Program-made: the position numbers and the translations under genes
Shown: positions 1 through 14,821 of the stretch, one piece after another
Layout: each line of letters opens with the position of its first letter
Numbering within the stretch: position 1 is the first letter of the stretch
Origin: Pelodictyon luteolum DSM 273
GTDB lineage: Bacteria > Bacteroidota > Chlorobiia > Chlorobiales > Chlorobiaceae
Direction of reading: 5' to 3'
DNA: 64,000 bases
Assembly: GCF_000012485.1 (NCBI RefSeq)
Contig: NC_007512.1
Coordinates: 1,179,001-1,243,000, forward strand
The notes under the pieces: generated by a model
What the model saw: the letters and a program-made list of their open reading frames with translations, nothing else
Told to the model about the DNA's origin: nothing
Databases searched by the model: none

Positions 1-1
1 T

Positions 2-760
2 GCACGATGGATTAATGAGAACAACTTTCGCATCCTGTGCCCGTCCCGCCCCGGTTACCTTGGCACTCCGCTTGAGAGTGGCCGGAGCATGGAAGAGCAG
101 GCCGACCTCTTCGCTTCACTTCTGGACCATCTCGGGATCGAGAAGGTGGTTGTCGTCAGTGCATCTGCAGGAGGCCCTCCAGGCTATGTTTTCGCAATGC
201 GCCATCCCGAACGGGTATCAGCCATGATTGCCATCGACTGTGTCAGTGGTTATTACGACCTTCCGGAAAAGGTCGGCCCGGTTGCCGAAGCGCTCTTTCT
301 CAACAGCTTTGGTCAAAAGCTAACAAGCATGATGGAAAAGATCAGTCCGGCTTCATTCCTGAAGCAGCTGTTCGTTACCGAGGCGTATTACACCAAGGAG
401 CAGATGAAAACGCATATCGACTTTGCCATCAATACTCCATCCGCCCTTGAATTCGTAGATGCCTTCATGAACACCATGTACCCGTACAAGCCCCGTAAGG
501 CCGGAACGGATAATGATATGGCAATCTACAGGACCTATACCCGACTGCCATTGAGCGGCATACAATGCCCGACGCTCATCATCCATGGGACCCATGATGC
601 CGATGTCAAGTTCTACGATGGTGTCTATGCATATGAAAGCATTGAGGGGGCAGAACGCCACTGGATTGAATTCGGATCGCATGTCGGATTCTGGGTCAGT
701 CCAGGCTCTGCTGCTGCCCAGAAACATGCTGCAGCTTTTCTCGAACGCCATGCCGGCTGA
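2..760 (+). CDS. Alpha/beta hydrolase fold protein, 5' end outside the window
   Basis: The reading frame is open from the first bases of the window, so the start lies upstream. The part upstream of the internal ATG at 89 is clearly coding: FRILCPSRPGYLGTPL is the usual hydrolase segment before the nucleophile. Visible features are the nucleophile elbow SASAGG (catalytic Ser within VVVSASAGG), a lid region, the acid Asp in HGTHDADV and the His in FGSHVGFW near the C-terminus. This is a cytosolic hydrolase of unknown substrate; the family includes esterases, lipases and C-C bond hydrolases. A fragment of a second copy of its 3' end lies at 12600-12705, on the other side of the transport cluster. 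Confidence 0.85.
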   Translation, partial: ARWINENNFRILCPSRPGYLGTPLESGRSMEEQADLFASLLDHLGIEKVVVVSASAGGPPGYVFAMRHPERVSAMIAIDCVSGYYDLPEKVGPVAEALFLNSFGQKLTSMMEKISPASFLKQLFVTEAYYTKEQMKTHIDFAINTPSALEFVDAFMNTMYPYKPRKAGTDNDMAIYRTYTRLPLSGIQCPTLIIHGTHDADVKFYDGVYAYESIEGAERHWIEFGSHVGFWVSPGSAAAQKHAAAFLERHAG

Positions 761-1113
761 TACCCGGAGCATTGTAGCGTGCCTGCCCACACCTCCGTAA
801 CCCCCATCCCTGGGGTATCTTCTCTGCCCGCCTTACCTATGCGATGCCGGAGCGATCATAAACCGTTCCGGCATCAGTTTCGCAGGGTGGCTCCTGAGAT
901 GTGGAGGTATTTCAGGACATAGACCCGGTATCTGGTTACGCCGCCTTTGGTGGTTACCAGCTAGTCCAAACCGCCAAGGAGCCAGCGGTGCCAACGGGTG
1001 AGGTACTGCCAGAGACTGTGTTGGGTTTTCTTGCTGTATTGGGTAACTTATTGAAGTAGTCGTGATTGTAATAGTTGGATACATTCAACCATTGGGATCA
1101 AAAGGAGACCCTC
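761..1113. other. Intergenic region with a perfect hairpin
   Basis: No convincing gene was found between the hydrolase and the Nif11-like remnant. A 5-bp G/C-rich hairpin lies near 800-818, shortly after the hydrolase stop, and may act as a weak terminator. A perfect 9-bp inverted repeat (843-851 with 867-875, arms gatgccgga/tccggcatc, 15-nt loop) has no T-run. The rest is unassigned and looks like decayed sequence. Confidence 0.4.
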
Positions 1114-1256: not shown

Positions 1257-1367
1257 TTCTTCGGCCTTGGAATATCTCCTGCTGCACCTTATGCAATGAT
1301 TACAAGCCGGGGTCTTTGGCTTCTTAACCTGTCCATGTCTTTCTTGCAACTCCAGTCCCTCGGTGCC

Positions 1368-2396
1368 ATGCACGAACGCCAGCGATCAACAGGTTCCTTA
1401 CTGTTCCAGGCATTCAGCCTGATGGTTGTTGTTGCGCTGCTTTCCCTTGCTGCATATCCTTCCCTGCTCCATGCAGAACCCCCGCTTAAAAAAGCTTCCC
1501 TCATTCCTCTCTGGAGCCCGCAGGCACAGTTTGCCGGGTATTATGTTGCCCTTGAAAAAGGGCTGTACCGCCGTTACGGGGTTGAACTGAGTATCCTGAA
1601 CGGAGGCTCGGGCAATTCGCCAGTCGAGGCCCTCCAGAGCGGCAGGGCCGACTATGCGGTGATGTGGCTGACCACGGCGTTGCGGCATCGTGATGCAGGG
1701 ATACGTCTTGTGAACATAAGTCAGGTTATCCAGCGCTCTTCGATGATGCTTATTTCCAGGAAATCCAGCAGGATTGATTCATTGCAGGGGATGAACGGAA
1801 AAAAGGTCGGACTGTGGGACGGAGATTTATCGATTCCACCACTGACGTTGTTTTCCCGCAGGGGCATTACGATCCGTCAGGTACCGCTAACAAATACGGT
1901 GAACCTGTTCCTGCGCGGGGGGATTGAGGTGACCTCGGCGATGTGGTACAACGAGTATCACGTGATCCTGAACTCAGGGGTGGACGCCGATGAACTCAAT
2001 GCGGTCTTTCTGAGCGAACAGGGCGTGAACTTCCCGGAAGACGGGATTTACGGGCTTGAAAAGACCGTGAAGGGCGATCCTGCTTTGGCTGCAGCCATTG
2101 CGGATGCCTCACGGGAGGGGTGGCAGTACGCGTTCGATCATCCTGAAGAGGCACTTGATATTGTAATGAAATATATGCTTCGTGCTCATGTACCGGCAAA
2201 CCGGATGCACCAGAAGTGGATGCTGAACCGGATGCGCGACCTTATCATGCCCGGTACGGCTTTCGGCAAAATGCCGTCCGGAACATTGGATCGGAAGGAC
2301 TACCATGATGCAGGAAATGCCATGCAGCGTGCAGGGCTGATAGGGGGGTGTCCGGACTATGCCGATTTTACCTGGAGACATGATGCAGTTCAGTAA
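1368..2396 (+). CDS. NMT1/THI5-like ABC substrate-binding protein
   Basis: The protein is about 342 residues from ATG 1368; the frame is open back to 1296, but 1368 puts a hydrophobic signal segment (FSLMVVVALLSLAAY) near the N-terminus. After the LLHAEPP cleavage region comes an NMT1-like start: IPLWSPQAQFAGYYVALEKG, then YGVEL and GRADYAVMWLTTAL. This matches the periplasmic binding proteins used for thiamine-pyrimidine, nitrate or alkylsulfonate uptake. The ligand cannot be told. No matching SsuC/SsuB-type permease or ATPase is adjacent. Instead the gene overlaps the next one, a Cache-PP2C phosphatase, by 17 bp, which suggests the binding protein may serve sensing. No clear Shine-Dalgarno precedes 1368, so the exact start is uncertain. 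Confidence 0.75.
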   Translation: MHERQRSTGSLLFQAFSLMVVVALLSLAAYPSLLHAEPPLKKASLIPLWSPQAQFAGYYVALEKGLYRRYGVELSILNGGSGNSPVEALQSGRADYAVMWLTTALRHRDAGIRLVNISQVIQRSSMMLISRKSSRIDSLQGMNGKKVGLWDGDLSIPPLTLFSRRGITIRQVPLTNTVNLFLRGGIEVTSAMWYNEYHVILNSGVDADELNAVFLSEQGVNFPEDGIYGLEKTVKGDPALAAAIADASREGWQYAFDHPEEALDIVMKYMLRAHVPANRMHQKWMLNRMRDLIMPGTAFGKMPSGTLDRKDYHDAGNAMQRAGLIGGCPDYADFTWRHDAVQ

Positions 2397-4356
2397 GAGC
2401 ATTGTCATCCGCATGATTGTGGTGATTACCCTGTGCAGCGCAGGAATTTTCGCCGTAACGCTGGTCGTCAACTATATGCAGTCACGGAGCATGCTTGAAA
2501 TGGAGCTTGAAAAGAATGCCCGCAATCTGGCATCTTCACTGGCCAACAGGGTGGACGCAGAGCTGGTTTCGGTGGCGAAGGTGACGGAGGGGATGGCACG
2601 CTCACTCGATACGGCTGAATATAATCGAGAGGGGCTTGTTCCCCTCATTGGCAGCATGCTTGATTCCAACCCGTCTGTCTATGGTTCGGCTATTGCATTC
2701 GAGCCTTATGCATTCAATAAGCAGGAGCGCCTCTATGCGCTCTACCTGTTCCGTGACGAAGGAACGGTAAAGGCAATCCGTCTTGATGCCTCCTACCGGT
2801 ATGTGCCGTATCTTTATCAGGACTGGTACCAGATTCCCGTCGAGCTGCAGGCGCCAGTGTGGAGCGAGCCTTATTTTGACGATGGAGGCGGGAATGCGAC
2901 CATGGCGACCTGTTCGGTTCCCTTTTATTATTCGAGCGGGGGAAAAAAGGAGGTTAAGGGGGTGGTATCGGCAGATATCCGGCTTGATTCACTGACCCAG
3001 CTGATATCTTCCGTCAGAATCCTCAAAACCGGTTATGCGATGCTCCTGTCGCGAAACGGCATGGTGCTCACCCATCCTGACAGTTCATTCATCATGAACG
3101 AGTCAATTTTCAGCATTGCCGAAGAGCGTAGCGATCCTGTGTTGCGGGAGATGGGAAGAAAGATGATTGCGGGAGAGTCGGGTTTTGTCCACCATTCCCT
3201 GACGGACGAGCCTGGCTGGATGTATTATGCTCCTATCCGTTCGACAGGGTGGACTCTGGCTGTTGTTTTTCCTGAAGCGGAACTGTTCGAAAAAGTAAGG
3301 AACCTGAGCCTGACTATGGCAGGGATTGGCACTGGCGGCCTATTGCTTCTTGCGCTGGTTGTGGCCATGGCCACCCGTTCCATAACCCTTCCGCTCAGGG
3401 CGCTGGCAAGTGCAACGGGGCCGATGGCTTCAGGTAACTTCGATGTTGAACTGCCTGCTGTCCGCTCGAACGATGAAATCGGCATGCTCACCAGTTCATT
3501 CCGCATGATGGGGGAGTCACTGAAAGAGTATATCCGCAACCTGACGGAAACTACGGCACAGAAAGAACGGATACAGAGTGAGCTGCAGATGGCCACCGAC
3601 ATTCAGGCGAGCCTCCTGCCCCGTATCTTCCCGGCATTCCCTGAGCGCCCCGAGTTCGATATCTTTGCATCGATGGATGCGGCCAAAGAGGTCGGTGGAG
3701 ATTTTTATGATTTCTTTTTCATCGATGACAGTCATCTCTGTTTCCTTATTGCCGATGTTGCAGACAAAGGTGTGCCTGCGGCACTCTACATGATGGTTGC
3801 AAAGACGCTTCTGAAGTCGGAGGCGCAGCGGTTGAGAGATCCCGGTGTGATTCTTGAGCATGTGAACAACATCCTTGCCGAAGATAATGAGAGCTGCATG
3901 TTCGCTACCGTGTTCTGCGCCATACTCGATACCGCATCAGGGGAGCTGATCTTTTCGAATGCAGGCCACAACCCGCCGCTCCTCGTCGGTTCGGGCGGTG
4001 TGCGTTATCTGGACGTGAAGCCGGGATTCCTGCTTGGACCCGTGCCGGATTCCCGGTACGAGACCGAACGCATCACACTGCGCAACGGTGATGTATTCTT
4101 CCTCTATACGGACGGGGTCACCGAAGCAAAAAACAGGGAGGATGAACTGTTCGGGGAGCAGCGCCTGCTGGAGATTCTGCAGGGTGATTTCTCCATGGCG
4201 GTGGAAGATATGGTCCATGCCGTCCGCTCCAGTGTGGCGGGGTTTGCTGAAGGGGCGGCGCAGTCGGACGACATCACGATGGTTGCGCTGCAATACACGG
4301 GAAATGGCATATCAAGTTCAGCAATTGATGCCCCGCTGATTATAAGTAAAAGCTGA
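2380..4356 (+). CDS. Membrane Cache-HAMP-PP2C (RsbU/SpoIIE-type) serine phosphatase
   Basis: The start ATG 2380 (or 2383) is chosen because GGAG lies just upstream; the frame is open to 2359. About 658 residues. Order: transmembrane helix at about 8-30, a large periplasmic Cache-like sensor (about 35-300), a second helix (about 305-330), HAMP (about 330-385), a linker helix, and a PP2C/SpoIIE phosphatase domain (about 420-650). Phosphatase motifs are GGDFYDFFFI, IADVADKGVPAALYM, SNAGHNPPLL, YTDGVTEAKN and DDITMVAL, which supply the metal-binding aspartates. Such proteins dephosphorylate STAS anti-anti-sigma proteins in partner switching. A STAS gene (10774) and an RsbW-like gene (11116) lie in the same cluster and are the likely partners. 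The Cache domain suggests control by an external ligand. Confidence 0.9.
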   Translation: MMQFSKSIVIRMIVVITLCSAGIFAVTLVVNYMQSRSMLEMELEKNARNLASSLANRVDAELVSVAKVTEGMARSLDTAEYNREGLVPLIGSMLDSNPSVYGSAIAFEPYAFNKQERLYALYLFRDEGTVKAIRLDASYRYVPYLYQDWYQIPVELQAPVWSEPYFDDGGGNATMATCSVPFYYSSGGKKEVKGVVSADIRLDSLTQLISSVRILKTGYAMLLSRNGMVLTHPDSSFIMNESIFSIAEERSDPVLREMGRKMIAGESGFVHHSLTDEPGWMYYAPIRSTGWTLAVVFPEAELFEKVRNLSLTMAGIGTGGLLLLALVVAMATRSITLPLRALASATGPMASGNFDVELPAVRSNDEIGMLTSSFRMMGESLKEYIRNLTETTAQKERIQSELQMATDIQASLLPRIFPAFPERPEFDIFASMDAAKEVGGDFYDFFFIDDSHLCFLIADVADKGVPAALYMMVAKTLLKSEAQRLRDPGVILEHVNNILAEDNESCMFATVFCAILDTASGELIFSNAGHNPPLLVGSGGVRYLDVKPGFLLGPVPDSRYETERITLRNGDVFFLYTDGVTEAKNREDELFGEQRLLEILQGDFSMAVEDMVHAVRSSVAGFAEGAAQSDDITMVALQYTGNGISSSAIDAPLIISKS

Positions 4357-4394
4357 CAGCAATAATAGACGAATCCACCCGTAATCAAGACACC

Positions 4395-5177
4395 ATGAAT
4401 AAATTGCGACCTTCAGTATTGGTGATTGTGCTCTTCTCCCTCTTCATTGTGCTTGGCGGATGCAGCCAGCGGGAGAAAATCACTGCACTGCAGCAGCTGT
4501 CAGGAAAAGAGTTCGCCGTTCCTACCGGAACTGTTGCCGACAAGCTGGTGCTCTCGAAACTGCCCGATGCACGGTTCCAGTACTATAACACCGTTATGGA
4601 CGGGGCTCTTGCCGTGAAAACGGGGAAGGCGGATGCGCTGGCATATGATGAGCCCATCCTGAAAAACATTGCCGCAAAGGTCGATGGGCTTGTCATTCTC
4701 AAAGAGATGATCACGGTCGACCAGTATGGTTTTGCTGTCCGTAAAGATGACGCCCCGCTCAAGCAGGCCATCGACAGGACGCTGGGCCAGCTGAAGACGG
4801 ACGGGACCGGTACGGAGATGCTGCGGCGCTGGTTTCCTGTATCCGGAAGTCCGGCTCCGATGCCCGAAATCGCCTCAAGCGGTGACAACGGAATATTGCG
4901 CCTCGGCACTTCAAGCGTGACTGAGCCTTTTTCATTTGTTGATGGCAGCGGGATGGTTGTCGGGTATGACATCGAGCTTGCCCGGCGTGTAGCTGCGGGG
5001 CTCAGCCAGAAGCTTGAGGTCGTGAACATGGACTTCGGCGCGCTGATCCCGGCCCTGATGTCCGGCAAGGTAGACATGATTGCAGCCTGCATCACCATTA
5101 CCGAAGAGCGCTCAGAAAAGGTACTCTTTTCAGAGCCTTATTATACGGGCGGAATCGCCGCAATGGTGGCTCAATGA
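4395..5177 (+). CDS. Lipoprotein with SBP_bac_3 lobes in the order lobe 2-lobe 1
   Basis: A 260-residue lipoprotein with lipobox VLGGC (Cys23). Family 3 amino-acid-binding proteins normally read lobe 1, lobe 2, short C-terminal return. Here the mature protein starts with the lobe 2/return half (about 28-147: FAVPTGTVADK, ADALAYDEP, LGQLKTDGTGTEMLRRWF) and then carries the lobe 1 half (about 165-258: ILRLGTSSVTEPFSFV, VVGYDIELARRVA, MDFGALIPALMSGKVDMI, ITITEERSEKVLFSEPYY). Both expected amino-acid contacts are present: Asp85 in lobe 2 and Arg239 in lobe 1. The stop overlaps the next start (ATGA). This is either a circularly permuted domain or two half-domains that pair with halves in neighbouring proteins. 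Confidence 0.8.
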   Translation: MNKLRPSVLVIVLFSLFIVLGGCSQREKITALQQLSGKEFAVPTGTVADKLVLSKLPDARFQYYNTVMDGALAVKTGKADALAYDEPILKNIAAKVDGLVILKEMITVDQYGFAVRKDDAPLKQAIDRTLGQLKTDGTGTEMLRRWFPVSGSPAPMPEIASSGDNGILRLGTSSVTEPFSFVDGSGMVVGYDIELARRVAAGLSQKLEVVNMDFGALIPALMSGKVDMIAACITITEERSEKVLFSEPYYTGGIAAMVAQ

Positions 5178-8146
5178 AGGGGCGCATGCATAGATGGTTT
5201 CCGGTCCTTTTTATCCTTGCCCTGCTTTCCGGCTGCGGCAAAGATGCGCAGGAGATCCGCTCGATTGAGGATGCCCGCAACGCAAGGATTGGAGTGATGA
5301 CCGGTTCGACCGGCGAAGAGCTGGCGCTGCAGATGTTTCCTGACGCCGATATCAAGAGTTTCGATGACGTCATGGACGCCGTCACCGCGATGATGTCCGG
5401 CAAGCTGGATGCAATCGTCACAGCCTATCCCACGGCGCTGCAGGTAACCAAGAAGCATACTGCATTCCGTGTCCTCGAAGAACCGCTCCGCAACGAGAAT
5501 ACATGCATTGCCCTGAGGAAAGGCAATCCGGCACTCATCACTACCTTGAACGGCATCATCGATTCGCTCCACCAGGATGGTACGCTTGCCGACATGCGCA
5601 GGCGGTGGTTTAAAAAGGACCTGTCCCCATACGAGGAACGCACGCTTGAGGTGCCGACGAAGGGGGAGGTACTTAAAATAGGTGTCACCGCCACAAGGGA
5701 GCCGATGTCGTTCATGGACAGGGATGCAGAGGTCAGCGGATTCGACGGAGAACTGGCACGCATCATCGGCCGGGTTCTCCGCCGGCCGGTAGAGTTCCAT
5801 AACATGAAGTTCATGGGGCTTATTCCTGCTCTTCAGTCTGCAAAGATCGATCTGGTGATTACCGGTATGACGGCCACGGCTGAGCGGAAGCGATCGGTTG
5901 ATTTCACAAAGACCTATTTCGAGAACGCCCAGGTTATGCTGGTCAAGACCGCAGCTCCCCACGGTGATGGCAAGGTAAGGGTACTGAAGGATATCGACGG
6001 GAAACGGGTTGCGGTGCTGTCGGGTTCTGCCGGTGACCTTGCCGCGCGCCGCCGGTTCCGCGATTCAGAGTTCCTTGTGATGGAAAATGCAGCCGATGCT
6101 GCCGTTGCCCTGAACACCCGAAAGGCGGATGCATTTATCTATGACAGGAGCGTGCTCGAGAATATTGCCCGACAAGAGCCGGGGCTTGTGATTCTTGGAG
6201 AGCCGGTGGCGAAGCTTGAGGTTGCCGCAGCCCTCAAGAAGGGTAATACGGCGCTTGCTTCGGAGTTGAACGAGGCGATTGGGGCGTTCACAGAAGACGG
6301 CACTCTTGCCATACTCAGAAAGAAATGGATCGACGGGGATGGCGGCTCCCTTCAGGAATCGAATGCAGGCGGGAGGAAAGGCGAAGCAGAGCTTCGGATG
6401 GGGACCTGCGCTACCCTGGCTCCATTCTCCTATCATGCGAATGGAGAAATCACGGGACTTGACATTGAGCTGGCAAGGATGATCGGCAATCGGCTCCAGA
6501 AAAAAATCACGCTTGTCGACATGCCGTTCGGAGCCCTGATTCCGGCACTGCAGGCGGGCAAGATTGATTTTGCCCTTTCTAACTTCAATGTCACCGAAGA
6601 GCGAAAGAAGCTGATCCTGTTCTCGAGGCCCTATCTTCAGAATGACATTTCCGCGCTTGTGCTCCGTTCAGCCGCTGCTCCCGCGGCACCGGTTTCGGAG
6701 GGGGCATCACTTTCAGCTCCTGATCTGAACGGCACGCGGGTTGCCGTGCTGCTTGGTTCCACGCATGACACCTATGCACTCAGTCACTACCCGAACGCAA
6801 CGCTCCTGCAGTACAAGACCCCATCCGACATCATTCTGGCCGTCAAGAGCGGCAAGGTGGACGCGGGCATATACACAACCGAGACCCTCCGGGAGATTTT
6901 CAGGGCAGACCCGTCCCTTGAGCTCAAGGGCGGGGTCCTGTTCTCCGTACCCGTGGCCATGGGGTTCAATAAGCAGAATGACAGCCTTCGGGAGCAATTC
7001 AATGTCTTTCTTCAAGACATCCGTCAAAACGGTGTCTATCGGGATATGGTCGACCGCTGGATCACCCGGGGTGAGGATGCAATGCCCTCCATTTCCGGCA
7101 CAAGGGCCAATGGCGTCCTGAGGGTCGGGGTTGTCAGCGACAAGGGGCTTCCGTTCATGATTGTCAAAAACAACCGCCTGGTAGGGTTTGACGAGGAGCT
7201 CGCAGAACGGTTTGCCGCATATCTCGGCAAGGAGATCAAGACAAGTGATATGGATTTCGGCAACTTGATCGCAGCTGCGGCCACGAACAAGATTGACATG
7301 ATTGCCAGCACGCTCATGATTACCCCGGAACGGGCACTCCAGATCAGTTTTTCTGATCCATATTATGAGATTGGGGCAAGCGCTTTCGTCATGAAGACGG
7401 GGGAGGCTGAGGCTGTCGCTGGAAACGACGCTCCGGGTGCTGCATACTCCTTCATTCAGCCCATTGTGGACGGATTCCAGAATAATATCATAAAGGAAAA
7501 CCGCTGGAAACTGATTCTCAGCGGACTGAGAGTCACCGTAATCATTTCGGTGCTTTCAGCTCTGTTCGGCACGGTGCTCGGGGCGGGTGTATGCGCCATG
7601 CGCATGTCATCGGCCAAAACCTTGAAGACGCTGGCATCGGTGTTCATTTCCCTGCTTCGGGGAACGCCTGTATTGGTGCTGTTGATGCTGATTTTTTATG
7701 TCGTGTTCGCATCGGTCTCCATTGATCCTGTGGCTGTTGCCGTCATTGCCTTCGGGCTGAATTTTGCAGCCTATGTGGCCGAAATTTTCCGGAGCGGTGT
7801 GGAGAGCATCGACAATGGGCAGCGTGAGGCGGGGATTTCCATGGGGTTCACCCGGCTTCGTACCTTCCTGCTCATCATCCTTCCTCAGACCATCCAGCGC
7901 ATCCTGCCGGTGTACAAGGGCGAGTTCCTTTCGCTCGTTAAAATGACCTCGATCGTCGGATACATCGCTGTCGAGGACCTCACGAAAGCAGGCGACATCA
8001 TCCGGAGCAGGACTTTCGATGCATTCTTTCCCCTCATCATGGTAGCAATACTGTACTTTTCAATTTCCTGGCTGCTGTTGCAGTCGATGGCATATCTTGA
8101 ACGAAGGACGGATCCGAAATTCAAACGGATAAAGACAGCGGTATGA
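5174..8146 (+). CDS. Six-lobe amino-acid-binding protein fused to an ABC permease
   Basis: A 990-residue protein with lipobox LLSGC (Cys21). Order: lobe 2 (28-146), lobe 1 (165-259), lobe 2 (268-386), lobe 1 (404-499), lobe 2 (514-631), lobe 1 (645-742), then a HisM/GlnP-type permease domain (about 765-990). The permease has the EAA-type motif EAGISMGF...ILPQ and the segment [14 protein letters not shown]. Each lobe 1 keeps the Arg that binds a ligand carboxylate (Arg238, Arg477, Arg720). The lobe 2 position for the amino-group Asp is Ala84, Asp324 and Thr568, so the pockets differ. Binding domains fused to permeases are known (for example lactococcal GlnP with two), but this phase and number are unusual. 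The gene overlaps both neighbours by ATGA. Likely substrates are polar amino acids or related compounds. Confidence 0.85.
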   Translation: MKGRMHRWFPVLFILALLSGCGKDAQEIRSIEDARNARIGVMTGSTGEELALQMFPDADIKSFDDVMDAVTAMMSGKLDAIVTAYPTALQVTKKHTAFRVLEEPLRNENTCIALRKGNPALITTLNGIIDSLHQDGTLADMRRRWFKKDLSPYEERTLEVPTKGEVLKIGVTATREPMSFMDRDAEVSGFDGELARIIGRVLRRPVEFHNMKFMGLIPALQSAKIDLVITGMTATAERKRSVDFTKTYFENAQVMLVKTAAPHGDGKVRVLKDIDGKRVAVLSGSAGDLAARRRFRDSEFLVMENAADAAVALNTRKADAFIYDRSVLENIARQEPGLVILGEPVAKLEVAAALKKGNTALASELNEAIGAFTEDGTLAILRKKWIDGDGGSLQESNAGGRKGEAELRMGTCATLAPFSYHANGEITGLDIELARMIGNRLQKKITLVDMPFGALIPALQAGKIDFALSNFNVTEERKKLILFSRPYLQNDISALVLRSAAAPAAPVSEGASLSAPDLNGTRVAVLLGSTHDTYALSHYPNATLLQYKTPSDIILAVKSGKVDAGIYTTETLREIFRADPSLELKGGVLFSVPVAMGFNKQNDSLREQFNVFLQDIRQNGVYRDMVDRWITRGEDAMPSISGTRANGVLRVGVVSDKGLPFMIVKNNRLVGFDEELAERFAAYLGKEIKTSDMDFGNLIAAAATNKIDMIASTLMITPERALQISFSDPYYEIGASAFVMKTGEAEAVAGNDAPGAAYSFIQPIVDGFQNNIIKENRWKLILSGLRVTVIISVLSALFGTVLGAGVCAMRMSSAKTLKTLASVFISLLRGTPVLVLLMLIFYVVFASVSIDPVAVAVIAFGLNFAAYVAEIFRSGVESIDNGQREAGISMGFTRLRTFLLIILPQTIQRILPVYKGEFLSLVKMTSIVGYIAVEDLTKAGDIIRSRTFDAFFPLIMVAILYFSISWLLLQSMAYLERRTDPKFKRIKTAV

Positions 8147-9669
8147 GAAAGCTGGCCATGATATCCGCACTTCTTTTCGTTGCAGCGTCGCTGGTAGTCG
8201 GAACATCTTTAAACGGCGCAACCCTCCGCTCACCCGATGACCTCAGGCTTGGGCGGATAGGGGTCCTTCAGGGGACCATCCATGAGCGCTATGCCATGAA
8301 AGCCTGGCCTGAGGCGACGATACTCCAGTACCAGTCTCCGTCTGATCTCTTGCTGGCGGTGAAGTCTGGAAAGGCAGACGCTGCCATTTACAGTGATGAC
8401 GAACTCATGGTGATGCTACGCCAGAACGGTGACCTTGCCGTTCTGGGGGATGAGCTGCTTGCAACCCCGCTCGGCATGGGGTTCCGCTACGAACAGACTG
8501 AACTGCGCAGCGCATTCAACAATTTCCTCCGGGACATCATGGCTGACGGGCGGCAGGACGCGATGGTCCGCTACTGGATGAAGGACGGCGGAACCCGGAT
8601 GCCGGCGATTGCAGCATCGGCAGAGAACGAAGTGCTCAGGGTTGGTATTCTCAGCGATAACGGTATGCCGTTCTGCGCACTTATCGATAACCGGCTTACC
8701 GGATACTCCATTGAACTGCTCGACAGGTTCGGGCTGTACACAGGGCGGAAGATTACCTATGTGAATATCGAGTTCGGGAGCATGATAGCCGCTCTTGCAA
8801 GCCGAAAAATCGACATGATCGGCGCCGTGATGGCAATTACCCCTGAGCGGCGCAAAAAGGTTGCTTTTTCCGACCCTTACTATGCACAGGGAGCCCACCT
8901 CTTTGCCCTGAAAAAGAACATTGCATCATTACCTCAACCCTCGACAGCCGGCAGTGTAAAGGATGGGGAGTCTTTCCTTGCGGGGATTGCCGAAAGTTTC
9001 CGGAGCAACATCCTGCTGGAGAACCGCTGGCAGCTCATCCTTGAGGGGTTCCGGACAACCCTTGTCATTTCCGTGTTTTCCGCACTGCTTGGAACCCTCT
9101 TCGGCGCCCTGGTCTGTTTTATGAGAATGTCACGCCTCAACATCCTGAGGGTGTCGGCCGGAGTTTTCATCTCGCTGCTTCGCGGCACGCCGGTGCTGGT
9201 GCTCCTGATGCTGGTATTCTATGTGGTCTTTGCCTCCGTCAACATCGACCCGGTGCTGGTGGCAGTCATCGCCTTCGGACTGAACTTTGCAGCCTACTCT
9301 GCGGAAATCTTCCGGGCCGGCATTGAGGGTATCGACAGGGGGCAGACCGAGGCGGGTATCGCGATGGGCTTTACCGGGCCGGCAACGTTTTACTTCATTG
9401 TTCTGCCGCAGACCCTGCAGCGCATCCTGCCGGTCTACAAAGGGGAGTTCATTTCATTGGTGAAAATGACCTCGATTGTGGGCTATATCGCGGTGCAGGA
9501 TCTGACGAAAGCTGGAGATATCATCCGAAGCCGTACCTTCGATGCCTTTTTCCCGCTCATTATGGTAGCGGCATTATATTTCTTTCTCTCATGGGCTCTC
9601 ATGCGCATGCTTGAATACCTTGAAGGCATGATGGCCCCAAAACACCGGAACCGAACCGTTGCAGCATGA
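8143..9669 (+). CDS. Amino-acid-type binding lobes (lobe 2-lobe 1) fused to an ABC permease
   Basis: A 508-residue protein with a cleavable or anchoring N-terminal segment (residues 5-20) but no lipobox Cys. Lobe 2 spans about 28-146, lobe 1 about 163-258 and the permease about 280-508. The permease closely resembles that of the preceding gene ([64 protein letters not shown]). The two permeases therefore probably form a heterodimer with the ATPase encoded next. Lobe 1 keeps Arg236. The lobe 2 Asp position holds Ser84, followed by Asp85. The gene probably arose by duplication of an ancestor of the upstream gene, followed by loss or gain of lobe pairs. ATGA overlaps occur on both sides. Confidence 0.87.
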
Positions 9670-10757
9670 TACAGATCAAGCATCTTTCCAAGAAGTTCGG
9701 GGCACTTGAAGTACTCCGCGATGTAAGCATCACCGTCCGGAAAGGAGAAGTGATTTCAATCATCGGCCCCTCCGGTACGGGAAAAAGCACATTCCTGCGA
9801 TGCATCAACCTGCTTGATCGTCCGAGTGGAGGGTCGATTGTCATCAATGGAGTCGATATTCTTGATCCCAAAGCCGATGTACCGGCCATCCGCAGGAAGA
9901 TGAACATGGTGTTCCAGTCCTTTAACCTGTATCAGCATCTTTCCGTGATGGACAACCTGACCCTCGGTCCTGTGAAGCTGTTGCAGACCGGCAGGCAGGA
10001 TGCGGAGAAAAAGGCGCTCGAGCTGCTCAAGCTTGTAGGGCTTGCTGAAAAGGCTGACAGTTTTCCCGATGAGCTGTCCGGAGGCCAGAAACAGCGTGTA
10101 GCCATTGCCCGCTGCCTGGCGATGGAGCCATCAATCATTCTGTTCGACGAGCCGACCTCTGCACTTGATCCTACCATGGTAAGCGAGGTGCTGGCTGTCA
10201 TCCGCCGTCTGGCCCGGGACGGTATGACCATGCTCATCGTTACCCATGAAATGAAGTTTGCAAGGGATGTGTCCAGCAGGGTGCTCTATATGGACGAGGG
10301 TGTGATTTATGAGGAGGGGCCCCCTGAGCAGATCTTTGACAACCCCCAGAAGGAGAGGACGAAAATCTTCATCAATCGGGTGAGGAGCTTCAACTACCGG
10401 ATTGCTTCCCCCGATTACGATCTATATGCCATGAATGCGGAAATTGAGCTGTTCTGTGAAAAGCAGATCCTTCCGCTGAAGTCCCGACAGAGTCTGCAGC
10501 TGCTCGTCGAAGAGGTCCTGCAGATATGCGCAGATACCCTGCGCTCCACGGCGATCGAGCTGGCCATAACCCATTCGGAAAAGACCGGGGAGATAAAGCT
10601 TCTGGTCGAGAGCGGAGGAGCAGAGGAGAACATCCTTGAATCGGCAGCCCTGCCGGACGAACTGGGCCTGACGATCATCCGCAATCTTACCCGGAGCATT
10701 GCATACAAGCGGGATGGTGGTCAAAACAGGCTCACATTGATCTTAAAAGAACAATAA
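9666..10757 (+). CDS. GlnQ-type ABC ATPase with C-terminal kinase-like (HATPase) domain
   Basis: Residues 1-240 form a full polar-amino-acid ABC ATPase: Walker [10 protein letters not shown] (34-42), Q-loop, signature [16 protein letters not shown] (from 137), Walker [14 protein letters not shown]-loop His194. GlnQ/HisP proteins normally end near residue 245. Here about 115 more residues follow (about 250-363). They look like a GHKL/RsbW-type ATPase fold: a helix [14 protein letters not shown] in the N-box place, a strand pair around KLLVESGG, then [20 protein letters not shown] and a final RLTLIL strand. The N-box Asn is missing, so ATP binding by this domain is doubtful. Neighbouring STAS and RsbW genes make a regulatory docking role likely. 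The domain identity is read by eye; the ABC part is certain. Confidence 0.85.
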
Positions 10758-10773
10758 ATGAAAGGTGGTCAAA

Positions 10774-11112
10774 ATGGAATTCCAGATACAAAAAGAAACA
10801 GCGGCAACGGTTGTTGCTGTCATCGGCAGGATGGACGCCGTAACGGCTCCCGAGTATGAAAAAAAACTTGCCGGGATGATGGACGAAGGGGAAAAGAATT
10901 TCATCATTGATTTCGGCAAGCTCGACTATATCAGCAGTGCCGGTTTGAGGGCTTTGCTCATGACTGGCAAAAGAGTCAAAAGCCTCGGGGGTCTTATGCT
11001 GCTTGCCAATATTGGCGGTGCAGTCAAGGACGTGTTTGCGATCTCCGGTTTCGGAACAATCTTTCCAATGCACGATACCGTGCAGAGTGCGCTTGGCGCA
11101 GCTGAAGAGTAG
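10774..11112 (+). CDS. STAS-domain anti-anti-sigma factor (RsbV/SpoIIAA type)
   Basis: The start ATG 10774 follows aaaggtgg at a good distance; a GTG at 10765 is in frame but lies inside that site. The 112-residue protein is one STAS domain: IGRMDAVTAPEYEKKL, FIIDFGKLDYISSAGLRALL, LMLLANIGGAVKDVFAISGF. The SS pair in YISSAGL (Ser54/Ser55) includes the site normally phosphorylated by an RsbW-like kinase and dephosphorylated by a PP2C phosphatase. Both enzymes are encoded here (11116 and 2380). The protein is cytosolic. Its target is unknown; the kinase-like tail on the ABC ATPase just upstream is one candidate. Confidence 0.92.
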   Translation: MEFQIQKETAATVVAVIGRMDAVTAPEYEKKLAGMMDEGEKNFIIDFGKLDYISSAGLRALLMTGKRVKSLGGLMLLANIGGAVKDVFAISGFGTIFPMHDTVQSALGAAEE

Positions 11113-11115
11113 ACG

Positions 11116-11547
11116 ATGATGCCGGAAGAACGGATAAGGGTTGATGCGAAGCTTGACCGGCTTGAGGAGATAGTCGGTTTCGTGGAGGACTGTGCCGATC
11201 GGTTCAGGCTGGAAGACTCCCGGAAATTCGGGCTGAACATTGCCGTTGAAGAGGCTGTTGTCAATATCTGCAGTTATGCATACCCTGATACTGAAGGCAT
11301 GCTTGATGTGGCGTGCAGGGTTACGGATGAGTCACTCGTGATTGAACTGTCCGATTCAGGTATCCCTTTCAACATCCTTACGCTTCCTGACCCTGAAACA
11401 GATGCTGCGATAGAGGATCGGGAAATCGGAGGCCTTGGCGGCTATTTCATCCGGCAGTTCAGCGATGCTGTCAGTTATACACGAAGGGATGGAATGAATG
11501 TTCTGACCCTTGTGTTCCGGCGTGGAGCATCAATAGAGCTGCCATGA
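11116..11547 (+). CDS. RsbW-like anti-sigma/serine kinase (HATPase)
   Basis: A 143-residue protein starting with two adjacent ATGs (11116 or 11119), just after the STAS gene. It is a single GHKL ATPase domain with N-box AVEEAVVNICSYAY, G1-like DSGIPFN and a glycine loop GGLGGYFIRQF, ending in NVLTLVFRR. Proteins of this type phosphorylate the STAS partner and, in other bacteria, hold a sigma factor or enzyme inactive. No sigma factor gene is nearby. The gene overlaps the truncated permease remnant by ATGA, so the ancestral operon continued into that permease. Confidence 0.92.
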   Translation: MMPEERIRVDAKLDRLEEIVGFVEDCADRFRLEDSRKFGLNIAVEEAVVNICSYAYPDTEGMLDVACRVTDESLVIELSDSGIPFNILTLPDPETDAAIEDREIGGLGGYFIRQFSDAVSYTRRDGMNVLTLVFRRGASIELP

Positions 11548-11762
11548 ACACAAAACCACCCAATCTGACCTATGGCCTTGAGGACACCCCGCCTTTTCCG
11601 GTGAATGTTCTGCTCGGCTTTCAGCACGCGGCCCTTGCCCTGGTGTTCATTGTCTATCCTCTCATGCGCCTTGCTGCCGCTCTCATGGGGCAGTATGCCG
11701 ACAGTGTGACGACTGGGATATACAACGGTAAGCAGGACATTTCCATGCACGTTGATCACTGA
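11544..11762 (+). pseudogene. Truncated uracil/xanthine (NCS2) permease remnant
   Basis: The first 40 or so codons read as the N-terminus of an NCS2 nucleobase permease (LTYGLEDTPPFPVNVLLGFQ, then HAALALVFIVYPL). After about residue 40 the sequence no longer resembles the family, and the frame ends at 72 codons, whereas full proteins have more than 400 residues. The start overlaps the rsbW-like stop (ATGA), so the gene was once part of this operon. A deletion probably removed the rest and joined it to the acetolactate decarboxylase region. A functional short product cannot be excluded but is unlikely. Confidence 0.7.
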
Positions 11763-11782: not shown

Positions 11783-12484
11783 TCAGCGCTCGGCACTTTC
11801 CAGGTCTCTTTCCACATCACGCTGGAAATCGCATGAGAGGTAATCGAAGTTCATGGGCATTGCCAGCTCAAGAGCTGTGATGAACTGTATGCCCGCATTG
11901 ATGTTTGCAGGAGTGCACTCAAGCAGATGCCCGCCATGGTGCCTGTCACGCGAAAGAAAATGGAGATGAAGGCCGGGTACACTGACCGAGCCCATGAACG
12001 CAGGGGTATAGAATCCGACCAGCGTTCCCTCGATTTCCTGATACTCAAAGATTGGCTGGTCTTTTGCGACCTCAGCGAGGGGCCGGTAGTTTTCCTGACG
12101 GGGTACTGAGCGGACTTTCATGGAAGAAAAGGTCCCCTCGATGCGGATGGCGTAAAAAATGTTCAGGGACGGAAGGAGGCTGTACAGCCAAGCCTGAAAC
12201 TCCGGATAGGGCGTTCTCCTATCAAGGCTGTCATGACTGACCGGCGAGTAAAACGTCACGCAGGAAAATGGTGTCAGCGTGGCGTCATCAACCATTGCCG
12301 CAACACCATCGGATGTGATCTGATAGATCTTCCCGTCAAACATCACCATCTCTCCGTCGAGGTCGTCAAAGGTACCCAATCCGAAATCCCCATGTTTCTT
12401 GATCTCGGTAAACGGGATTTTTTGCCTGTATATACCCTCTACAAGCGCGTTGACAGGTGCGCAGAAGTATATGCTTGAGCCCAT
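11783..12484 (-). CDS. Alpha-acetolactate decarboxylase
   Basis: Converts acetolactate to acetoin and CO2. The start ATG 12484 gives 233 residues beginning MGSSIYFCAPVNALVEG, which matches the usual beginning of the family; a GTG at 12556 would add 24 residues. Family features are DFGLGTFDDLDGEMVMFDGK, the FYAIRIEGTFSSMKVRSVPRQ block, and the metal-binding cluster LHLHFLSRDRHHGGHLL with HxH plus a later His as zinc ligands. It stands alone, with no acetolactate synthase beside it. It may drain excess acetolactate from branched-chain amino acid synthesis or make acetoin. It is transcribed toward the partner-switching cluster. Confidence 0.93.
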   Translation of the reverse strand: MGSSIYFCAPVNALVEGIYRQKIPFTEIKKHGDFGLGTFDDLDGEMVMFDGKIYQITSDGVAAMVDDATLTPFSCVTFYSPVSHDSLDRRTPYPEFQAWLYSLLPSLNIFYAIRIEGTFSSMKVRSVPRQENYRPLAEVAKDQPIFEYQEIEGTLVGFYTPAFMGSVSVPGLHLHFLSRDRHHGGHLLECTPANINAGIQFITALELAMPMNFDYLSCDFQRDVERDLESAER

Positions 12485-12599
12485 TAGTTTCTTTTCTTGA
12501 AAAGTTATGGCTGCCGAAATGAAGGCGTCTGGATTGCGCTGATTGATCTCTGCCACTTCATGCTAAATTACAAAATAACGTATCAAAAGAAATTGTCCG

Positions 12600-12705
12600 C
12601 CGGGGGCAGAACGCCACTGGATCGAGTACGGTTCCCACCCAGGGTTCTGGGTCAGCCCCGGAGCAGGCCGTGGCTGCAGGGTTTCTAGATGGCCATACCA
12701 AATGA
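12600..12705 (+). pseudogene. 3' fragment of a second alpha/beta hydrolase gene
   Basis: Read in frame from 12602, the sequence gives GAERHWIEYGSHPGFWVSPG, nearly the same as GAERHWIEFGSHVGFWVSPG of the hydrolase at the window start. By eye 48 of 60 bases match (12602-12661 with 646-705), including 21 identical in a row. After that a one-base shift is needed to continue with EQAVAAGFLDGHTK and a stop at 12703-12705. Only the last 35 or so codons, including the catalytic His, remain. The fragment lies in the same orientation as the hydrolase gene. The two copies bracket the whole 1.3-12.5 kb cluster. Confidence 0.75.
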
Positions 12706-12767: not shown

Positions 12768-12794
12768 CCAATATAATCCAATGGATTATATTGG
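12768..12794. promoter_or_regulatory. 27-bp perfect palindrome over a -10 box (putative antitoxin operator)
   Basis: The arms ccaatataatcca and tggattatattgg are perfect inverted repeats of 13 bp around a single central base. The left arm contains TATAAT (12772-12777). The palindrome ends three bases before the toxin ATG. Position and symmetry fit autoregulation by the helix-turn-helix antitoxin encoded at 13117. Confidence 0.7.
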
Positions 12795-12797
12795 GGT

Positions 12798-13105
12798 ATG
12801 AATGTCACAATCGTAGAGCTTCCTGAATTCATTCGTCGGTCAGATAATCTCTTGACTTCTGATGAGCGAGATGCGCTCGTCTTCTATCTGTCGATGCATC
12901 CCCAGGCCGGAAGCATCGTGCGTGGCTGCGGTGGGCGAAAGGAAACAAAGGCAAGAGCGGCGGAGTTCGTGTCATATACTTTTATCATGATCCGCGCATG
13001 CCATTATTTCTATTGACGCTTTTCAGCAAAAGCGAGAGGGAAAATCTGACGAAGGCGGACATGAACGGTCTTCGGCAGATGGTTGATGTCCTTATAACCA
13101 ATTAG
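12798..13105 (+). pseudogene. RelE/HigB-type toxin, frameshifted
   Basis: From ATG 12798 the frame reads MNVTIVELPEFIRRSDNLLT and continues to HPQAGSIVRGCGG, a RelE/HigB-like toxin start. It then leaves the family and stops at 13016. Another frame over the same DNA reads RWAKGNKGKSGGVRVIYFYH, FLLTLFSKSERENLTKADMN and ends VDVLITN at 13105. This is the expected C-terminal half. Family members carry a few extra residues between GCGG and RWAKG, so a small out-of-frame deletion near 12930 is the simplest cause. The toxin is probably inactive unless frameshifting restores it. Confidence 0.8.
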
Positions 13106-13116
13106 GTGGAATTACG

Positions 13117-13425
13117 ATGCATTCAGACTTCGACAGTATCAGGAGGGGGCTTGAAGAAGCCATCGCCTACATGGGGGGGGAAGACGTCGGGGCAAGGGTT
13201 TATAGGCCTCGGCCCATAGACGTGAAGGTTGTCAGGGAGAAGACCGGCCTGACCCAGGAGCGGTTTGCTGCGGCCTTCGGCATCAGCGTGGCCACATTGC
13301 GGCATTGGGAGCGGGGAGACCGCAAACCCCACGGGCCAGCTCTCGTTCTCCTCGACCTTGTCCGTAAGGCTCCCGATACCGTACTTGGGGTGCTCAATGA
13401 AGATGAAGCTCCTTACGGGGAGTGA
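13117..13425 (+). CDS. Helix-turn-helix antitoxin (HigA/NadS-like)
   Basis: A 102-residue protein with a good ribosome-binding site (aggtgg, 13104-13109), starting 11 bp after the toxin reading frame ends. The C-terminal half is an HTH_3/XRE domain: VVREKTGLTQERFAAAFGIS followed by VATLRHWERGDRKPHGPA. The N-terminal part (DFDSIRRGLEEAIAYMGG) is typical of antitoxins paired with RelE-like toxins. It should bind the palindrome at 12768-12794 and neutralise the toxin. With the toxin frameshifted, it may persist as a regulator or protect against related toxins. Confidence 0.88.
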   Translation: MHSDFDSIRRGLEEAIAYMGGEDVGARVYRPRPIDVKVVREKTGLTQERFAAAFGISVATLRHWERGDRKPHGPALVLLDLVRKAPDTVLGVLNEDEAPYGE

Positions 13426-13435
13426 GCCCGGCCCT

Positions 13436-14821
13436 TCAGCCGAGCAGTTCCCGGGCCTCCCTGATCTGCCGTTCGACCGACTCGAACGAGCAGCTCCCGT
13501 GCGACTTTTTCGACGTGATGCTCGCTTCCGGCGTCAGCGCCGTGAATATTCCCTCGTCGAACACCTCCGAGAACTCCCTGAAGCGCTCGAGCGGGATGTC
13601 GGGCAGGGGAGTCTGGTTCTCGATGCTCCAGCTGACAATCTTTCCGGTGATGCGGTGCGCGTCGCGGAAGGGGACATCTTTCTTCACCAGGTACTCGGCG
13701 ATCTCGGTCGCCAGGCTCAAATCCTTCTTCGTGAGCTCTTTCAGGCGCTCCTCCCTGAGCCGCGTGTGCTGCAGCATGCGGTTGAAGAGGGTAACGCTTG
13801 AGATGGCGGTTTCGGCACTGTCGAACAAAGGCGGCTTGTCCTCCTGCATGTCCCGGTTGTAGGAGAGCGGGAGCCCTTTCATGATGGTGAGCATTGCCAT
13901 GAGGTCCCCGTACACCCTTCCGGTTTTTCCCCTGATCAGTTCTGCGATATCAGCGTTCTTCTTCTGCGGCATGATGGAGGAGCCGGTCGAGAAGGCGTCG
14001 CTGATCTCCAGATACCCGAACTCATACGAACTCCAGAGAATGATGTCCTCACAGAAGCGCGAGAGGTGCATCATCACGATGGAGCAGCAGGAGATGAATT
14101 CAATCAGGATATCACGGTCGCTGACGGCATCGATGCTGTTCGTGAAGAGCTCGCTGAAATCAAGCAGCTCGGCCGTGCGCCCGGCATTAAGCGGGAGGGT
14201 GCTGCCGGCAAATGCCGCCGCACCAAGCGGAGAAACGTTCACCCGCATCAGAAGATCAAGCAGGCGCTCAGTGTCCCGGTTGAACATGTTGAAGTAGGCC
14301 AGGTAGTAATGGCCTGCCGATATCGGCTGAGCCCTCTGCAGGTGGGTGTAGCCGAAGATGATGGAGTCCTTGTAGGTTTCGGCTTTCTGGACGAGGGTTC
14401 CGAGGAGGTCGTTCAGCGCTTCCTGCAGCTCTTCGATCCGCTCACGCATGTAGAGCCGGGTATCGGTTGCCACCTGGTCGTTACGGCTGCGGCCGGAGTG
14501 GAGTTTGCCGGCAGCGGCTCCTATTTTCTCCTTCAGCCGGTTTTCAATCACCGTGTGGATGTCTTCATCCTCCCACTGCGGAACGAGCGTTCCCGTTTCA
14601 ATTTCCTTTTCAATCTCCTTCAGCCCCCTGCATATCGCATGGGCGTCATCCGCCGAGATGATGCCTTCCTCGCCGAGCATGGTGGCATGGGCGATGGAGC
14701 CTTGAATGTCTTCACGGTAGAGCTTTCCATCGACATGGACCGATGAGGAAAACCTCAACGCCTCGCTGTCGAACGGTTCATTGAAGCGGCTTGCCCAGAG
14801 AAGTTCTTTCTTGTTGCTCAT
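13436..14821 (-). CDS. argH: Argininosuccinate lyase
   Basis: Splits argininosuccinate into arginine and fumarate, the last step of arginine synthesis. The 461 residues match the family length. Seen are the N-terminal [17 protein letters not shown], the [20 protein letters not shown] block, the catalytic TH of [12 protein letters not shown] and the fumarase/lyase signature [10 protein letters not shown] with the mobile-loop Ser. It is the last gene of the minus-strand argCJBFRGH operon, about 100 bp after argG. Its end lies 10 bp from the converging antitoxin gene with no terminator visible between them. Confidence 0.97.

Follow-up and report, generated by a model that had tools for sequence, protein, structure and literature searches.

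The stretch of chromosome beside argH in Pelodictyon luteolum DSM 273 is read here as the genomic fossil of a cassette insertion and not as the trace of a duplication. Within the window, the whole stretch of 64,000 nucleotides that was analysed (positions 1,179,001 to 1,243,000 of contig NC_007512.1), an intact hydrolase gene and a short repeat of its 3' end flank a transport block, and this repeat probably represents the severed tail of an older argH-side gene, left over from the arrival of the 12-kb block. At a probability of about 0.7, we consider that a foreign block brought its own hydrolase allele and, by recombination within the 5' part of the native gene, stranded that gene's 3' end. 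This reading is based on the place of the gene in two relatives, the lineages of the hydrolase alleles, the decay of the fragment and the presence of the cassette without a hydrolase in other genomes.

The intact gene, copy A, occupies positions 1..760 on the forward strand, with its start 157 nt to the left of the window, and its predicted product of 305 aa is assigned to the alpha/beta hydrolase superfamily by its match to the Pfam profile Abhydrolase_1 (PF00561; E 5.8e-15, 56.1 bits against a cut-off of 25.8); with the NCBIfam profiles the same protein gave 22 matches, 0 of them reaching their own cut-off. Fragment B, at 12602..12705 on the forward strand, comprises 104 nt, approximately the last ninth of the gene, and derives by decay from the 3' end of such a hydrolase gene. 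A preliminary description had noted by eye a 3' hydrolase piece with 48 of 60 bases equal and 21 in a row identical, some 12 kb from the intact copy and in the same direction, and both a repeat search of the window and a gapped alignment returned the same figures (646-705 against 12602-12661, 80% identity, the first 21 bases identical, direct orientation, spacing 11956). In the alignment of the two copies a shared core with 23/24 bases equal (646..669 of copy A, forward strand, its partner at 12602-12625) is followed by weaker similarity reaching the stop at 12703-12705, giving 75/104 over 646-760. The pair has a local alignment score of 36, whereas 500 dinucleotide shuffles gave at most 16, and the match has an E of 1.3e-8 in a search across the whole genome, a single contig of 2,364,842 bases. 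Relative to the intact gene, fragment B lacks 11 nt, and its core and tail lie in different reading frames. Because the same gap occurs in the sister genome, Pelodictyon luteolum MAG CIII (G025), which has in addition an in-frame TAA in its fragment B, the sequence gives no sign of function in the fragment.

Between the copies, as the preliminary description had it, lies the transport cluster, a transport and signalling cassette at 1296..11547 (forward strand) predicted to encode an NMT1-like binding protein, a Cache-HAMP-SpoIIE protein, an SBP_bac_3 protein, two SBP-permease fusions, an ABC ATPase, a STAS protein and a HATPase. The permeases in 5174-9669 are fused to several tandem solute-binding domains, four SBP_bac_3 stretches being found in 5174-8146, and they adjoin genes for SpoIIE, STAS and an anti-sigma-like kinase, an unusual combination of transport with signalling. 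To the left of the cassette stands what is left of the 3' end of a reverse transcriptase gene (769..1017, reverse strand), group II-like by its best NCBIfam match, which is below cut-off. It is followed by a short stretch (1260..1310, forward strand) that by eye resembles the 3' end of an IS3-type transposase gene and that bounds the duplicated cluster on the left; the IS3-like stretch at L071:9452-9700 gave 0 matches against Pfam. To the right follow the relic of a xanthine/uracil permease gene, with its 5' part and 3' end only (11548..11762, forward strand, borders approximate), and alsD, the gene for alpha-acetolactate decarboxylase (11783..12556, reverse strand; Pfam PF03306, E 1.9e-75), at the right end of the cassette.

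The same chromosome holds a second copy of the cassette at G000:C1:974496-984903, approximately 206 kb away and 98.9% identical to window positions 1260-11667, in which the permease gene is open, the window copy being reduced to its ends. From about 6500 to 10500 (4 kb) the two copies are without a mismatch, which suggests recent gene conversion between them. Likewise, the reverse transcriptase relic recurs near 990-1012 kb, where several reverse transcriptase 3' ends, some of them right behind different small genes, lie in G000:C1:990382-1012141 (L072, loci L120-L126). This repeat region also holds an RiPP operon of the NHLP type, with an NHLP leader peptide precursor at L072:17110-17499 (TIGR03793, 98.3 bits; a Cys/Gly-rich core at its end), a radical-SAM/SPASM protein and an ABC exporter with a C39 peptidase.

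The cassette itself is a separate unit, one that exists in other places with no hydrolase attached, because three genomes of the Chlorobium family, G065, G070 and G071 (the last seen only in part), carry a similar one together with alsD and without any hydrolase found. Among 86 genomes alsD is present in five, the window genome (G000), the MAG CIII and these three, in each of which it ends a cassette similar to that of the window. The run from NMT1 to alsD, left border included, is seen in G070; the left border is outside view in G065, where the sequence examined stops within the SpoIIE gene, and in G071, where the contig breaks off in a permease gene and a permease homologue sits between HATPase and alsD. 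In all three there was no hydrolase in the cassette stretches examined and no whole-genome DNA match to it.

Four of the 86 family genomes match the hydrolase gene over a long stretch, namely the window genome itself, the MAG CIII, Chlorobium phaeovibrioides BrKhr17 (G028) and G029, a match of 57 bases in G076 (E 6.5e-4) being left out of this count. In G028 and G029 a single intact hydrolase directly adjoins argH with no transport cluster between, and in G000 and the MAG CIII the argH-side position holds just the 3' fragment. Thirty loci beyond the 3' end of argH were examined, drawn from the 77 genomes in which argH was matched, over at most 1,500 bases each (642 in one case): two hold the intact hydrolase, two the fragment and 26 no trace at the protein level. 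In the window the interval next to argH contains a broken RelE/HigB-like toxin gene (12798..13105, forward strand; split over two frames here but open in a single frame in the MAG CIII) and an HTH antitoxin-like, higA-like gene (13117..13425, forward strand), followed by the right anchor of the variable site (13436..14821, reverse strand), which by gene order we take to be argH. Since 28-30 residues like a HigA-like protein, a relic at the same place as the antitoxin-like gene, sit between hydrolase and argH in both G028 and G029, the older gene order was likely hydrolase-higBA-argH. Ahead of the toxin/antitoxin-like pair, within 12768-13425, there is also a near-perfect 27-nt palindrome, a candidate operator. 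The arrangement from hydrolase to argH is common to G000 and the MAG CIII at 97-98% identity and is therefore older than their split.

The preliminary description had proposed looking in related genomes for a tandem hydrolase pair, and two full genes occur in 0 of the 86; what G028 and G029 have instead is the lone gene beside argH. It had also named, as evidence against itself, relatives with an independent second hydrolase gene at 12.6 kb and the cluster in a different place. Relatives do possess a hydrolase at this position and the cluster is found elsewhere, but the gene is the sole one and not a second.

The affinities of the tails place the fragment with these argH-side genes. Over the core (646-669) fragment B matches copy A and G028 at 23/24 each and G029 at 20/24. 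Over 670-705 it matches copy A at 25/36, G028 at 34/36 and G029 at 32/36, and over 706-760 at 27/44, 31/44 and 35/44, respectively, so that for 670-760 the values are 52/80, 65/80 and 67/80. Of the tail sites in 670-760, counted with 11 gap columns excluded, 14 part both window-type copies (G000 and the MAG CIII) from B, G028 and G029 together, two put B with copy A, two give mixed splits of one site each, and four are private to B. By these identities and site patterns the 3' tail of copy A (670..760, forward strand) is of another lineage than those of B, G028 and G029. As B is beyond the core nearer to G028 and G029 than to copy A, it most likely represents what remains of the native hydrolase on the argH side and is not a recent duplicate of the intact gene of the window.

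Copy A in turn looks like a mosaic. At its 5' end (-157 to -60) the G000 gene matches G029 at 90/98 and G028 at 52/98; the corresponding comparison of the MAG CIII with G029 gives 81/98 with gaps, and the first codons of the MAG CIII differ. In the body (21-645) the relation is reversed, G000 matching G028 at 613/625 and G029 at 454/625, and the MAG CIII matching G028 at 616/625. The difference between 5' end and body in their likeness to G029 (Fisher p 1.4e-5), set beside arg genes about 83% identical between G000 and G029 (about 78% for G028), points to a native-like 5' end followed by a foreign-like body and tail, although constraint could share in the 5' likeness, at which G028 nevertheless reaches only 52/98. 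With G029 as outgroup, five sites between -19 and 645 unite G028 with the MAG CIII and 0 unite it with G000, which places the body of the G028 gene inside the diversity of P. luteolum. The gene body may thus have been imported into C. phaeovibrioides in a tract ending in the conserved core, a direction that we infer from few sites. Nine outside homologues indicate that the core encodes a conserved stretch; they gave no indication of which hydrolase tail is older, and neither in its body nor in its tail is copy A tellingly nearer to them or farther from them.

A single event could produce the present layout. The native hydrolase gene would have stood beside higBA-argH when, in the ancestor of G000 and the MAG CIII, a foreign block of about 12 kb entered, bringing a divergent hydrolase allele (body and tail), the reverse transcriptase relic, the transport cassette and alsD. 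At the left joint, homologous recombination near the 5' end of the native gene would have created the hybrid copy A, which is still open, and at the right joint, 12601/12602, the block would have joined the native gene's 3' end without visible homology; the native 3' end left there would then have decayed to fragment B. One crossover and one non-homologous junction would thus suffice in one step. The right joint finds no explanation in the sequence, because the DNA left of 12602 shares with the left border only two 8-mers, apart from the repeat; it is upstream sequence of alsD, with no visible similarity to the hydrolase. Neither a donor joining hydrolase body, tail and cassette, among the genomes searched, nor a P. 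luteolum strain with the empty site, among those compared, was found. Against this reading stand the shortness of B, only 104 nt, and the closeness of its core to copy A (23/24) rather than to G029 (20/24).

An in-situ duplication of the window's hydrolase with subsequent decay of one copy is favoured by the core, in which B is as near to copy A as to G028, by the 21 identical bases, by the 80% identity over 60 bases and by the two tail sites at which B sides with copy A and differs from G028 and G029. Yet the two copies are not each other's nearest relatives (75/104 over 646-760, against 88/104 for G028 and 87/104 for G029), 14 tail sites oppose those two, and both G028 and G029 have a gene at the very place of B. 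Duplication is therefore, in our estimate, highly improbable. Of the duplication, insertion or partial deletion around the cluster that the preliminary description had offered together, the in-situ duplication finds no support, and insertion with partial loss does, in keeping with the relatives that have the lone hydrolase at this site without the cluster and those that have the cluster without the hydrolase.

A different course would be Campbell-type integration, with a single crossover between a circular donor and the hydrolase gene generating two full genes, of which the one beside argH was later deleted down to its 3' end. It explains no less well than the one-step insertion why the repeats are direct, why copy A is a hybrid and why the tail of B is native, and it fits almost as well overall. 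It needs, however, an extra deletion ending at the shared 24-nt core, and its intermediate with two full hydrolase genes occurs in 0 of the 86 genomes, so we regard it as unlikely and prefer the one-step insertion on grounds of economy. The 21-24-nt core might also be the attachment site of an integrative element that replaced the 3' end of its target gene, the element supplying a substitute end and the original lying beyond its far border; short direct repeats within the target gene at both ends (646-669 and 12602-12625, 23/24) and the switch in lineage between copy A and G028, which falls in the core, are consistent with this. But that switch is better read as the end of the tract imported by G028, identity in the core is expected because it encodes a conserved stretch, and an integrase domain was found in 0 of 13 window ORFs scanned between the repeats, a scan outside which small and overlapping ORFs lay; on this last count the element is kept as a minor rival, with little probability. 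Two further ideas were rejected. One was an origin of the G028 gene by excision of the 12 kb in a P. luteolum-like strain, since the tail of that gene is without the 11-nt gap of B and over its final portion matches B at 31/44, and since the flank 3' of it is G029-like (187/215). The other was phage or plasmid carriage of the hydrolase, with 0 matches at 1e-10 in the phage records searched and less than 60% identity in every one of the 15 plasmid records matching at 1e-20.

The favoured one-step insertion resembles homology-facilitated illegitimate recombination, which in the excerpt of PMC3240628 combines one homologous with one illegitimate junction. Common to both would be a foreign-like block, an apparently homologous left joint in the 5' part of the hydrolase, a right joint without visible homology and the survival of part of the native gene. 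A crossover near the 5' end of copy A would fit its 90/98 match to G029 there against 454/625 in the body. Unlike the defined process, the case at hand starts from end products with the donor not found, and a two-step history is possible; the directions of exchange and the origin of both junctions in one event are what we infer by this analogy. In E. coli, the integrative element e14 provides a new 3' end for icd, the gene into which it inserts. As with such islands, an intact gene with a different tail stands on one side, a relic of the original tail on the other, and direct repeats bracket the block; unlike them, the block is a metabolic cassette without an integrase in the ORFs scanned, and its core is conserved coding DNA. 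Gene transfer has reportedly been described in C. luteolum CIII from Lake Banyoles; among the titles and abstract openings of the literature listings, no paper on this site was found.

The site is also comparable to variable chromosomal hotspots, in that G000, the MAG CIII and G028 have different gene sets between conserved flanks, a likeness limited to four close genomes, with the left flank of G029 beyond reach and 26 of 30 argH flanks examined without hydrolase. By blastn the left backbones of G028 and G000 are collinear up to about G000:1165.4 kb, argH lying at 1192.4 kb, and in G028 a sensor kinase and a response regulator (Pfam) mark the end of this collinear part. Between that point and argH there are about 27 kb in G000 and about 11.4 kb in G028, with only the hydrolase in common (blastn). 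To the left of the hydrolase each of the four genomes has different neighbours: large Vps62-like proteins in G000, fimbrial-looking genes (by eye) in the MAG CIII, others in G029 and, in G028, an NHLP-like RiPP export operon with a C39-peptidase ABC exporter and a radical-SAM/SPASM protein directly before the hydrolase. Two large related proteins left of the hydrolase in G000, at L037:13425-16679 and L004:740-4192, are about 51% identical, and the second has a Vps62 domain.

One tentative and rather doubtful extension is that the hydrolase has served as a recurrent recombination anchor beside argH, its ends being repeated breakpoints, with cassettes and the gene body swapped among Chlorobium species and the body passing from P. 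luteolum to C. phaeovibrioides. If so, the swapped cassettes would be the RiPP export operon of G028, the transport block of G000 and the MAG CIII, and the other genes to the left. The site also documents a near-identical gene body in two species (616/625) whose arg genes close by agree at only about 78% (G000 against G028). What it offers is a local history and no new mechanism: a distinct, if rather commonplace, record of gene exchange between bacteria, and a traceable case of a metabolic transport block entering a green sulfur bacterial chromosome via a small accessory gene.
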